NCBI GenBank assembly: GCA_036874045.1 | Contig: CM072336.1 | Span: forward strand, 26,301,501-26,365,500 | Source of the DNA: Cymodocea nodosa | Lineage: Eukaryota > Streptophyta > Magnoliopsida > Alismatales > Cymodoceaceae | Direction of reading: 5' to 3' | Length of the DNA: 64,000 nt | Shown here: positions 55,135 through 64,000 of the stretch, piece after piece | Layout of the letters: each line of letters starts with the position of its first letter | Position numbering within the stretch: the stretch's first letter is position 1 | The notes under the pieces: model-generated | Seen by the model: only the letters and a program-made list of their open reading frames with translations | Told to the model about the DNA's origin: nothing | Databases searched by the model: none | Made by a program: the position numbers and the translations under genes

Positions 55135-56034
55135 TTGTGCCACCGAGAAAATAAAAAAAAGAAGGAAATAGTCATAAAATTTAGGAATCAGAAAATTAGA
55201 AAAGTTAGAAAATAGTCATAAAAGTTAGGAATTAAAAAATCAGAAAATTTAGAAAATACTCAGAAAAATTAGGAATTAGAAAGTCATAAAAGTTAGAAAT
55301 TAGAAAATTAAAAAATTTAATAATCAAAAAGTTAAAAAAGTTAAGAACGAGAAAGTTAGAAAATTTAGAAATAAGTCAGAAAATTTAAAATCAAAAAGTA
55401 AAATTTGAAAGCATTTGTCTCACCGATAGAAAGCTAGGAAAATTATATAATTCTTGAAATTTTAATATTTTATATTAAATAATAGTATAATATTTATATA
55501 ATAAAATAATAATATTAATTAAATAAAAATATTTATGATTTTATAATTAATATTTTATTAATAATAAAAAATATATTAAACCAATTAATTAAATAAAAAC
55601 AATATTAACAATATATACTTTAATTATATTTAAAAAAATAAAATAAAAATATTATATTAATATACTTTAATTATATTAAAGTATACACGAAGTCATTTTA
55701 ATTAAAAAAATATATATTATACAAAGTAATAATTAAAATAATATAATACTTTAATTATATTAACAATATATACTTTAAATAAAATAATATATTATACTTT
55801 AGTTATATTAACAATATATACTTTAATCATAATTAATTTTAAATAATAAAATAATTAATTAAACAAAGATAATTATTATACTACTCTACCAACTTTCAAA
55901 TAACGAAAAATTTGAAAGTTTGAAAAATCTAATCTTTTATATATAAGAAAGTTAACTTTCCTATATAGCATAAACTTAAAAAAGTTAAGAAAATTTTCTT
56001 AACTTTCTAATTATTACCTTTTCAGGTGATACAA
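55135..56034. mobile_element. Possible non-autonomous AT-rich element with imperfect terminal inverted repeats
   Basis: The left end reads TTGTGCCACC and the right end reads GGTGATACAA, whose reverse complement is TTGTATCACC (8 of 10 match). The flanks 'acggacctat' and 'acgatacctat' resemble a target-site duplication. Inside are a ~44-bp degenerate tandem repeat at 55169-55400 ('agtcataaaagttaggaatt' type), a near-pure A/T tract at 55490-55860 and a 26-bp perfect palindrome at 55981-56006. A copy of the left-end motif recurs internally at 55414 ('tttgtctcacc'). There is no coding capacity. The composition means chance matches are possible. Confidence 0.45.
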
Positions 56035-56900
56035 ACGATACCTATATCTTATTATTGATAGAAAAGATCAATACATGATGTATTTACAGATATATGGTAC
56101 TTTTCAAATTACAAATATTAACGTAGGTCCTAAAGTATAGGTTCTCCCTTCCTCCCTTCGTGAACGGTCCCTTGAGCCAATAAATACCCATAGGCAGATA
56201 ATGTCATCAACTAGTTAGGGATATAATTAAGTTCTCCACTTCTCCCTTTTATTCGTAGTGATACAACAGATTAGGTCAGCTCTATAAGGATGGGTGGGTG
56301 CCTTCTCACTGAATGCTAAGAGAACACGTGTATTCGCTAAGAATTATCTATAATAGCTGTTGGATTGGTGTGGTGTTTTGATTATGGATTTTGCGTAGAC
56401 ACAATCAATGAAGATCATATATCATATAAATGAATACATCATTTAGTTGTAAATTAAAGACAAATAGAGTTTACATTCATCTGTTTACAATCTAAGTATA
56501 TCGATTGTAACGATGTTGGGCATATAAATACAGAAGATTGTCCCTCTTGATTAATTTGGTCGGATTGTACTTGACAAGCCAACTGATCAAGTAATTAAAT
56601 GTCATGCATGTTGGATTTCGAAACAACCGGTATTCATTTATATTTATATTTGTATAGATGACTTTGAAGTTTTCATTGATTTTAGCAAAAATCCATCCAA
56701 ATTTTTTTATAAATCATGATCGATGTACTTTTTTTTATGATTTATAAATTATGCAATATAATTTTTATTAAACTCTAATTTTCATTCAAATTTTTTTGTA
56801 AATCATGATGTACTTTTTTATGATTTATAAATTATGTAATATAATTTTTATTTAATATATATAATTATTGTAATTAATACACTTTATAACGATTGCTAAA

Positions 56901-59482: not shown

Positions 59483-59509
59483 GTTATTATTATTATTATT
59501 ATTATTATT
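59483..59509. repeat. (TTA)n microsatellite
   Basis: About nine TTA units lie directly upstream of the TATA box of the uL4 gene. Confidence 0.9.
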
Positions 59510-59510
59510 T

Positions 59511-59524
59511 TATATAAATGGGCC
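59511..59524 (+). promoter_or_regulatory. TATA box and site II-like element of the uL4m gene
   Basis: TATATAAA (59511-59518) is followed at once by TGGGCC (59519-59524). TGGGCC/T 'site II' elements are common in promoters of plant ribosomal-protein and mitochondrial-protein genes. 'aagcccta' near 59597 resembles a telo-box with one change. These elements fit the gene downstream and place the start codon at 59648 about 110 nt after the expected transcription start. Confidence 0.5.
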
Positions 59525-59647
59525 GATATTTGCCCGGTCCACCAAAAGTGTACTCAGGGAGGCCCGCTTCAACAGCCTTCCCATTTTCGGCCTTTAAGCC
59601 CTACGATCGCGTTCTTCCCTCGTCCTCTCTCCAGCGCACAACCTACC

Positions 59648-62600
59648 ATGGCGTCCCTGTTGAGGGCCGCCGTCCTCCGACGGGCAGCCGTCCCCCTTCG
59701 CCTTCCGTCACTGTCTCAGCATTCTGTTTTTCCTTCTCGATCGGAGACTTCTGGTGCTTCCGCTCCACTTATCAAATCTTTCCTGCTTCCATTCCCGTTG
59801 AGGAACTTCGTTTCGCATTTCAACAGTTCGACTTTTCGCAGTTTGACGGACACGCCGTTGCCAAAGGAACTGCCCGGAACTGAGCCTCAGAAGAAAACGG
59901 CCAGCCTCCGGCCTAAAGGTACAATCCCGCTCTCTGCTTTGTGTCTGATCATCGGTGAGTGCTGATTCTTTTTATTTCGACGACCTGGATTACTCTAGCT
60001 GTTGTATTTGGATGAACTATAGATGCTTAAGTCGTACGCGTAGATAGCCCTCAATGTAAACCTGTATACGACATATGCTTAAGTTAACAGCTGGTTGATA
60101 TGTAGGTGATGCCATTTCTCGATTGTCTATCTGTTAGAGAGTACGATATTGAGAACCTTCATTTAGAGATGCACAATGAAAAATCAAAACCAATAAAAAT
60201 CAAAATATTTAAATGCCAAAAACTATTTGTATTTTTTTATAACTTCTAATTGGAGTGGCAAGTTACTTTGGATGCACATTTCCATCGTTTGCAAAGCACT
60301 ATTTGGTTTTTTGTGTTGGGTAACTGAATGGGATGTTTGCGAATTATTTCATTTTGGATTTCGATTTTGAGTTTTGACAAGGTAGATCAACTTCCAGTGA
60401 ATATCAACCAATATCCATGACCTAGCACCATCAGGTTTTGGTGGCACAATACCTTTCTCTCCATTTAGATCCATCATTAGAATGCTTCCGTGTGATCATT
60501 ACTGGTTTTTGTTGACAGGATTCCAAACTACACAATTCAGGAAGGCATCCTGATGGCTGTAAAATTGATCGGGGATGTTATGGTTCCTTGATGGTAACCT
60601 TGAATGCTCAATGCAATAATCAATGTATATGAAAATATGAGCCATAAGAAAGAAAGAAGGCATTATTAAGAATGTTCAAGATCTCCAATGATCGTACCCA
60701 ATATTCCCTGTCAATTCATGAAGTCCACCTACTTTCTCCCCCATCTAGCTCCAATCCTTCTCTAGCAGTCTCCTCCTCCCATCTCTTTCTCCACTAATTC
60801 ATGAAGACCACCCATTCTCTCCCCTTCTAGCCCCAATCCTTCTCGGGCAGTCTCCTCCTCCCCCAATCTCTTCCTCCTTTTGCAATTATAAATCCCAACA
60901 AGTGAATGGTTGAGATTAGAAAATTATGATACCCTTGTTGGTTCCATGGAGTATAGAGAGACCCAAAAAATCATTTAATATCATGAAATGCCGATGATTG
61001 GAATGGATCTAGTTCATCAACTTAAAATATTAAAAAATGAGCCAGTAAGTAGAAATATTAAACACAACATTAGTTGATAAATCTCTTTGAAAAATGTTTG
61101 ATGAGCATGATTTGTAATAGCACTGAATAAAGGCACCAGTAAAAGGGTGAACAAGTTATATGGATGGAATTTCTGTAGTGAATGTAATGCAAAGAGTGAC
61201 AAGATGCTATGAAATTTACAAATGTTTATCTACAGAAAAGATTAGAAAGAGGATACCTAATGGCCAATCAAGAAAAGAAGGCTTGTTTGTCAATAAGTGG
61301 TTTGGGATAATATCTTGATGCATTTGGGTGCAAAAGCATCTTGCAGGAAGAAATGGTGTAACCTAGGACATATGCAAAAATTATGAAATTAGAAAACATG
61401 AAATATTCTTAAACCCTTTGAAGAAAAAAGGCAACTTAAAAGAAAAAGCTCTTGTGATTCTACAACTAGGGTGAGTACCTTGTGTGAGAGCAAAATTTGA
61501 TTGAGAACTGGAATCAACTACTTGGCCATTGATGAGAAGTAAAATAATGAAATCATTGTTGTTGGAATGACCCTCTTATAGAAACAACCACACAATTTAC
61601 AATTATGAAATGTTTATGTCCTACAATTAAGAGAGTGAAATTTGACAATACAACTTCCAACGTGGATTTATGATGTGAAAAGCTCGCCATCGATGTGAAG
61701 TAACAAGAAGATGGGGTATAGAGGATGAAGGTATACCTAAGTGTACTAGAGAGATGGAAGACACCCACTATAGTGACAAAAGGGAATTAGATGTTTGTGA
61801 TAACACCATCACATGTGGGAAGATGAGCAAGAGGGAACAAGTGGAAAACCTTGGGTTTTAGTTTAGGTGGGGATTTGTGCAAGGAGAAATGATAGGAAAG
61901 GAAATAACATGAAATAATTTCCTATCATCTCTCATGTTTGTGCTGATAGAGATAATGAGAAAGAGTTTTCATCATCTCTACCCTATATATAAGACAGGTG
62001 ATCCCCTCATCCTCCTCAGAAAAGACCCAAAAAGGTTATCTGTTTTGCTCAGGACTATGGCTTTTGATTGTCACCTCCAGGTGGTGGTACTACTTGCTCA
62101 CATTAGAGACATGGGTGGTCATTCATGTATCTATGAAGACCACTGACTTTCCTCCATACATTATATTGTGCCTAAAACATTATTTTTCATTTTTTTCATC
62201 CTCTAAACTAAAACCCAAGGTTTTCGGCTTGCTCCCCCTAACTCCTTTTCCCACATGTGACGATGTTGCTATAGATTCCTAATTCACTTTCATTGCTATG
62301 ACAGGCCCCTTCCATCTCTCTGGTACATTCAAGTATACCTTTGTACTCTATGCCCCATCTTTTTGTCATTTTACATCAATGACTAGCTTTTCACCTTGTC
62401 AATCCACGTTAGGAATTGCAATGTCAAATTTCAATATCTTAATTGTAGGACATGAGCATTTCATAACTGTAGATTGTGTGATCATTTCTATAAGAGGATC
62501 AAACAACAATGATTTTATTGTTTTGTTTCTCATCAATGACCAAGTAATTGATTCTAGTTTTGAATTAAAAGTTTGCTCCCACATAAGGTACTTGTCCTAG

Positions 62601-63611
62601 TTGTAGAATTGCAAGAGTTTTTTCTTTTAAGTTGCCTCTTTTTCTTTAGAGGGCGTAAAAGTATTTCATGTTCTCTAATTTCATTCTTTTTGCATATGTC
62701 CTAGGTTACACCATTTCTTTCAGCAAGATGCTTTTGCACTCAAATGCACCAAAATATTATCCCAAGCCACTTATTGACAAACAAGCTTTCTTCTCCTGAT
62801 TAGCCATCAGGTATCCTTTCCGCAATCTTTTCTACAGAGGAACAATTGTAAATTTCATAACATCTTGTTATTCTTTGCATTACATTCATTGCAGAAATTC
62901 CATTCATATAACTTGTTCTCCCTTTTGCTGGTGTCTTTATTTAGTGCTATTACAAATCATGCTCATCAAACATTTTCCAGAGAAATTTTATCAGCTAATG
63001 TTGTGTTGAATATTTCTGTTTATTCACTTGTTTTTTAATATTTTAAGTTGATGAACTAGAACCATTCCAATCATTGGTATTCCATAATATTAAATGGTTT
63101 TTTGGGTCCCTCTATACTTCATGGAACCAACAAGGGTGCCATAATTTTTTAATCTCAACCATTCATTTGTTGGGATTTATAATTGCAAAAAAGCTATAGA
63201 TAACATCTTTTAGTTGCATTTTGTGAGAGAACTTCGTGGGTATCAAAGTATTTACTTTTTATTACGATTTACCTTATCCACCCATATACATTGTGGTTGA
63301 TTTTTCTGTAAAATGGTTTTTTTCTATTATTTAAGTTGATGAAGTTGGAAGCACTATTTTCTTCATAGAAAGGTGATTTTTTTTGTGCCATTTAGTGATT
63401 TTCCTTCCAGTAATGTACATTTGCCCCATGTCTTCAACACACTTCCTCTGTTGATGTTGCAGGCCTCTATGCAGATCTTGTGACAAGGGTGACAAATTTT
63501 CAAAATGAAGATAAAGGTTTCATGGTCTTGGCTGGTGATGTTTTTGATGTACCAATTAGAAAGGATATAGTTCACCGTGTGGTACGGTGGCAACTTGCAA
63601 AGCGGCAACAG
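59648..63611 (+). CDS. MRPL4: Mitochondrial ribosomal protein uL4 (L4), 5' two exons; continues past the window
   Basis: This nuclear gene encodes protein L4 of the mitochondrial large ribosomal subunit. Exon 1 (59648-59918) encodes about 90 aa, beginning 'MASLLRAAVLRRAAVPLRLP' and rich in Arg, Ser and Leu with no early acidic residue, a typical mitochondrial presequence. Exon 2 (63463-63611) encodes 'LYADLVTRVTNFQNEDKGF' and 'DVFDVPIRKDIVHRVVRWQL' with 'AKRQQ', the start of the uL4 fold as seen in plant mitochondrial L4. Both borders are GT-AG and the phases match. A second donor at 59955 (gtgagt, closer to consensus) is also in phase and would add 12 codons. The frame is open upstream to 59432, but that start lies before the TATA box. 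The remaining exons, with the conserved uL4 loop, lie beyond 64000; I saw no further exon between 63612 and 64000. Confidence 0.85.
60713..60877. repeat. 83-bp tandem duplication beside the foldback
   Basis: 'aattcatgaag(t/a)ccacc' at 60713 recurs at 60796, and the copies stay alignable through 'tctcctcctccc'. The second copy ends exactly where the left arm of the foldback begins. Confidence 0.85.
60878..63190. repeat. 2.3-kb foldback: two ~1-kb inverted arms in intron 1 of the uL4m gene
   Basis: The left arm, about 60878-61870, is the reverse complement of the right arm, about 62200-63190, at roughly 85-88% identity judged by eye. Paired blocks include the ends ('ttttgcaatt' at 60878 with 'aattgcaaaa' ending at 63190), the block around 61190-61220 with 62850-62880, and a perfect 22-base match of 61845-61866 with 62203-62224. 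The midpoint is 62034 for both the outermost and inner pairs, so the arms are colinear with little net insertion or deletion. The loop is about 330 bp. Matching broken frames exist in each arm (61553-61768 minus and 62298-62600 plus) but match no family I know. I found no clear target-site duplication. It may be a foldback transposon or an inverted duplication. Confidence 0.88.
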
Positions 63612-64000
63612 GTTTCTACTGAAATTATTATGTATTTTGGTTCTTTTATTTTGAGCATCATTTTGATTCCTTAATTTTTGTTGATTGCAAGATAAGTAGG
63701 ATAAATGAAATCAGAGAGCAGAAAATAATCTTCCATCAAGCAAATAATCAGTTAGCTATAATTGTTTACTATTCTTTTGAAATTATATCTATCATCTATG
63801 TAGCCTATAGCCCGCATGAAATAATAAACATGAGAAAGACAATTTAGACAAGGGAAAAGTGAAAAAAAGTAAATAATCAAGAGTATAGCATGTTAAGTGG
63901 TGCATTTATGTTATATAAAAAATTGAGCACGTTTTCTTGGAGAAAAGCAACAAAAACAAAAAATAATGAATGTGAAATTATTTTCAGATTATGTAAGTAT
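63612..64000. other. Start of intron 2 of the uL4m gene
   Basis: AT-rich sequence follows the donor at 63612. I see no exon before the window ends. Confidence 0.6.

Follow-up and report, generated by a model that had tools for sequence, protein, structure and literature searches.

A very long inverted repeat occupies most of the first intron of a nuclear ribosomal L4 gene, and on balance we favour the view that it is an old single-copy inverted duplication, which was probably once methylated via its own hairpin RNA and is now decaying. Most likely it has no selected role. The repeat lies in a 64-kb window, i.e. the whole stretch of DNA that was analysed, which is part of a contig referred to as C2; the genome searched comprised 374.6 Mb in 28 contigs.

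The inverted repeat and its host gene

The model of the host gene consists of six exons separated by GT...AG introns and encodes 307 amino acids without inner stops, whereby exons 3-6 fall past the end of the window. The product matches Pfam Ribosomal_L4 (3e-70) and NCBIfam rplD_bact (1.3e-69); because it is a bacterial-type L4 with an N-terminal extension, it is putatively mitochondrial. In this intact model, the inverted repeat sits inside the predicted intron 1 (59919-63462, GT...AG), accounting for 2313 of its 3544 bases. The features referred to in the following are:

59495..60883, + strand: stretch duplicated on contig C5; the homology reaches as far as the left tip of the inverted repeat
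59648..59918, + strand: exon 1 of the L4 gene (gene model, Pfam match)
59919..63462, + strand: first intron of L4, in which the inverted repeat lies (gene model)
60713..60862, + strand: tandem pair of pyrimidine-rich units with a spacing of 82-83 bp, outside the inverted repeat (repeat search, C5 copy)
60878..61866, + strand: left arm of the inverted repeat (arm alignment, genome search)
61867..62202, + strand: loop, 336 nt, without CpG (arm alignment, CpG count)
61868..61990 (approximate), + strand: terminus of a dispersed repeat, with the motif TATATATAAG on its downstream side (genome searches)
62203..63190, - strand: right arm of the inverted repeat (arm alignment, genome search)
63463..63611, + strand: exon 2 of the L4 gene (gene model, Pfam match)

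An earlier note on this DNA had described two arms of about 1 kb that pair end to end around a common midpoint at 62034, and both the arm alignment and a BLASTN self-comparison upheld this. In detail, 842 of 982 aligned columns are identical (85.7%) and 13 are gap columns. The same arms were recovered in blocks by a repeat search of the window. When the window was compared by BLASTN to its own reverse complement, the arm pair gave E = 0 over 992 bp and the second-best inverted pair covered 239 bp at 67%. The outer tips are identical over 24 bp and end sharply, and the innermost arm bases, adjoining the loop, pair perfectly. The arms can thus be called old yet not rearranged, as the note had also proposed, given a divergence of 14% with so few gaps.

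The mismatches are not evenly spread over the arms. Counted inwards per eighth of 120-124 positions, they number 11, 14, 15, 11, 18, 18, 22 and 31, so that identity, which is 91% at the outer ends, drops to 74% beside the loop (trend p = 6e-5). This gradient could reflect stronger homogenisation or constraint towards the tips, or extra mutation near the loop.

Such a structure might be produced in an assembly by joining a duplicated contig end in inverted orientation. Nothing was seen that speaks for this artefact, and we consider it extremely improbable: the arms differ by 14%, far above haplotype divergence, which makes a flipped haplotype copy unlikely; their differences follow a directional mutation pattern; and the flanks run into an intact gene.

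Predicted hairpin and mutation pattern of the arms

The L4 pre-mRNA had been proposed to contain a kilobase hairpin, and the computed fold of the sense strand bears this out. Its energy was -1378 kcal/mol, compared to a mean of -529 kcal/mol (s.d. 13, lowest -550) for 12 dinucleotide shuffles of the same strand. In this fold, 902 of the 989 left-arm bases pair to the right arm, and 16 helices run unbroken for 21 bp or more, the longest for 58 bp. The transcribed strand thus carries, as computed, the near-complete long stem that characterises a hairpin-RNA locus. The antisense strand folded to -1321 kcal/mol, with 875 left-arm bases paired and 12 helices of at least 21 bp, the longest of 37 bp. 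If anything, the stem would cut the working distance between donor and acceptor arithmetically from 3544 to about 1231 nt. Exon skipping and circular RNA, which the note had suggested as consequences, do not follow from this arrangement: the arms share one intron and flank no exon, therefore they neither pair across an exon nor favour circular RNA.

The differences between the arms were then compared to those of a control, namely the intron left of the repeat aligned to its copy on contig C5. The arms differ by 115 transitions and 25 transversions, the control by 54 and 41 over 953 aligned bases, which is a significant excess of transitions in the arms (Fisher p = 3e-5). With conserved cytosine contexts taken from the left arm only, transitions affected 14 of 24 CHG, 5 of 10 CG and 96 of 343 CHH sites (CHG vs CHH, p = 0.004; CG and CHG pooled, 19 of 34, p = 0.0014). 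For the whole control stretch the corresponding values were 10 of 97, 20 of 97 and 44 of 415, with no difference between CHG and CHH.

Depletion of CpG points in the same direction. The observed/expected CpG ratio of the repeat is 0.13, lower than in all 124 sliding windows of equal size in the 64-kb window and lower than in all 52 control pieces, which were taken from 37 other genomic loci; any locus that overlaps the repeat, its flank or the gene (the C5 copy included) had been left out. The CHG ratio of 0.50 lies within the usual range, as 11 of the 52 pieces do not exceed it. Part of the CpG loss may be ordinary for the L4 gene, because its other introns are CpG-poor too, with ratios of 0.23 for intron 2 and 0.00 for intron 3 (148 bp). 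Selection on RNA pairing could also favour transitions; on the sense strand, 67 transitions give G.U and 48 give A.C (p = 0.09), an excess that neither shows nor excludes it. Altogether, with moderate confidence, the transition bias and the CpG loss of the arms look like a methylation-type scar.

For the old, decaying inverted duplication favoured here, the following course of events can be proposed. Upon transcription of the L4 gene, the intron RNA would form a fold-back stem ~900 base pairs long, as computed above. Dicer-like enzymes would probably cut part of this stem into small RNAs; such dicing, which the note had raised, is plausible and is backed indirectly by the methylation-type scar. 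The small RNAs, or the repeated DNA itself, would have drawn cytosine methylation onto the arms, as the mutation pattern suggests. Methylated cytosines would then turn into thymines, so that the arms diverge mainly by transitions and the source of the hairpin slowly shuts itself off. To judge from the intact gene, splicing should still work because the repeat lies wholly inside one intron.

Alternatively, the hairpin RNA could have been kept by selection, either as a source of specific small RNAs or as a structure that helps a long intron to bring its splice sites together. The nearly gap-free arms (13 gap columns at 14% divergence) would agree with this, as would the sense fold being better than the antisense fold both in energy and in its longest helix. 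However, the sense G.U bias reaches only p = 0.09, genome searches, which 21-nt targets would escape, turned up no further target of the arms, and Rfam returned 0 matches at the gathering threshold for 59500-64000, thus no MIRNA or other RNA family. Overall, we hold selection for the hairpin to be improbable.

In a related and slightly more doubtful scenario, the hairpin would evade its own silencing, methylation-driven C-to-T changes being kept preferentially where they turn a sense G-C pair into G.U. In its favour are the 67 G.U against 48 A.C transitions (p = 0.09) and the longest unbroken helices of 58 bp on the sense against 37 bp on the antisense strand. If true, the DNA would no longer be seen as an inverted repeat and the intron RNA would nevertheless keep a diceable stem, a natural version of engineered G:U hairpins that avoid methylation.

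Related hairpins in plants

Long hairpins of this sort are a known kind in plants, and by analogy the L4 repeat may work, if at all, like the cases described in rice, transgenes, Arabidopsis and maize. In the case of rice, the pertinent part of one article describes a long inverted repeat on chromosome 12 of Minghui 63, with arms of ~1.3 kb, a 343-bp spacer and a predicted long hairpin RNA; it is presented there as a likely source of small RNAs, which were measured and vary between varieties (PMC7649420). Within the limits of this description, arm and spacer sizes are alike, whereas the L4 repeat is intronic and its small RNAs are putative.

In the case of hairpin-RNA transgenes, the relevant sections of a second article report methylation in the repeat, which is prevented by C-to-T changes; these weaken the repeat as DNA, and G.U pairs can keep the RNA stem (PMC9263138). 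The likeness, as far as these sections go, is that inverted-repeat DNA attracts cytosine methylation, for which the mutation pattern argues in the L4 repeat. However, the transgenes are engineered, promoter-driven and nearly perfect, while the L4 repeat is natural, intronic and 14% diverged.

In Arabidopsis, according to the passages of a review that treat them, 486 of 634 inverted repeats near genes yield 24-nt siRNAs (PMC12595863), and gene-near inverted repeats affect methylation and looping (Arce et al. 2023 and Gagliardi et al. 2019, via the same review). Like the L4 repeat these lie beside or in a gene, yet the passages discuss them among short MITEs; the L4 repeat is long-armed, single-copy as far as found and without target-site duplication. 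For maize genes, the part of PMC10760457 concerned describes a correlation of hairpin-like regions with small RNAs and methylation. None of the papers listed by the literature searches describes a kilobase-long hairpin within an intron of L4, although this does not prove that there is none.

A housekeeping gene with a long inverted repeat in one of its introns has to tolerate it without being silenced. The L4 repeat suggests a dated case of this, in which the arms, and not the neighbouring intron, were long methylated while the gene stayed intact. Given small-RNA and methylation data, the locus could show how far hairpin-directed methylation reaches in a transcribed gene, and whether G.U decay ends it.

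Copies in the genome, the C5 fragment and the loop

Part of the gene is present a second time. The stretch 59495-60883 is copied on contig C5 (21877879-21879375, minus strand) with 90.4% identity over 1380 aligned bases, and this copy contains the promoter side of L4, exon 1 and the first part of intron 1. Its homology breaks off no more than 6 bp from the repeat's left tip. A genome search gave no second copy of exon 2 with its flanks. A full empty site was rejected for C5, as the homology exists on the left side only. Wider synteny between C2 and C5 was rejected too: in a comparison of 84 kb against 60 kb, only three stretches of 89-236 bp at 72-75% were found beyond the 1.4-kb fragment. Either the DNA broke at the foot of the hairpin and so gave rise to the end on C5, or the pyrimidine-rich tract located here was broken twice. 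This coincidence of the C5 break with the repeat tip is, besides the methylation-type scar, one of two points worth following.

Regarding the order of events, two clocks disagree. Transversions (25 of 982 in the arms vs 41 of 953 in the C5 control, p = 0.044) hint that the arms separated later than the C5 copy, while total divergence (K of 0.163 vs 0.107) says that they separated earlier.

The earlier note had placed an 83-bp tandem duplication at the left end of the repeat. Two units 82-83 bp apart do exist there, sharing 29 nt at 86% and 42 nt at 90% identity, although Tandem Repeats Finder does not list them at its default score. Their link to the repeat was not supported, as both units are present in the C5 copy, which is without the inverted repeat. 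Because the C5 copy carries both, the tandem duplication is older than the C2/C5 duplication; it thus precedes the present-day surroundings of the inverted repeat and gives no indication of how the latter arose. Elsewhere in the window, a tandem duplication at 56694-56852 (1.8 copies, 88% matches) has an equal period of 83 bp and a different sequence, and an irregular A-rich tandem array with periods of 44, 24 and 20 lies upstream of the L4 gene at 55146-55391.

On the side of C5, the fragment (1501-2997 of locus L011) possibly represents a captured promoter plus presequence exon. A LINE at its junction, considered because a reading frame looked retroelement-like by eye, was dismissed, with neither a Pfam match nor a sensible match to a solved structure. 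At 269-427 of the same locus, ~1.1 kb from the end of the gene fragment, the reverse-transcriptase family RVT_1 was matched weakly (6.4e-4, short of the cut-off).

Searches of the genome with the whole arms (E at most 0.001) returned the two arms themselves and no further copy, and two arm pieces of ~370 bp, searched with E up to 10, again returned these two alone. The inverted repeat is old and, as far as found by searches that skip very common words and give lower bounds, single-copy. The exact 24-bp tip occurs at the two repeat ends only, so that other copies with the same ends, for which the note had called, were not found. With 3 mismatches, the tip was seen at two other genomic places, with a similarity of 28-29 bp; neither has an inverted repeat, and both were rejected as sister elements.

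Foldback and long-TIR DNA transposons consist of two long arms round a small centre with sharp tips. The L4 repeat shares this layout, and it might be a decayed transposon of this kind (foldback or Mutator-like) with very long terminal inverted repeats, which inserted into the intron and was methylated by ordinary transposon silencing. We regard this as unlikely, though it deserves more weight than the other alternatives. The perfect sharp tips of 24 bp, the rise in identity towards the ends that stronger constraint there would produce, the loss of C5 homology at the left tip and the methylation-type scar would all fit. However, no further copy of the arms was found, and the exact tip is restricted to the two ends. 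No target-site duplication was detected at the ends, where an old one could have decayed; there were only palindromic 6-mers inside the arms, with a score equalled by 212 of 500 random site pairs. In Pfam, 10 reading frames gave no transposase or other match with E below 0.1, an absence of transposase remnants that counts for autonomous transposons only. Of the marks of a TIR transposon, we thus found the sharp terminal inverted repeats, and neither target-site duplication, nor multiple copies, nor a transposase remnant. This agrees with the note, which could name no transposon family. Arm differences showed no codon-position bias in 7 ungapped blocks (lowest p of 0.086), and together with the Pfam result this led us to reject a coding origin of the arms.

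Returning to the old inverted duplication, a hint on its making comes from the loop. A dispersed repeat has its terminus 1-2 nt inside the loop, at the end of the left arm; the downstream part of the loop (61985-62205) gave a self-match only. With the loop as query, six further genomic places were found, and one of these as query gave 23 places, itself and the loop included. The places mostly begin at one terminus, with 70-82% identity. The palindrome is thus centred on an end of this dispersed repeat, so the insertion of the latter, or a break at that end, may have had a part in making the inverted duplication. As a foldback family the dispersed repeat was rejected: 1 of 25 loci, the present one, has long arms, and the others have none or at most ~170 bp. 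The dispersed repeat itself has a length of at least ~120 bp, a sharply defined terminus (GGGG.TTTGTGC) and mirror-like inner modules, and a TATA-like motif is found in some of its copies.
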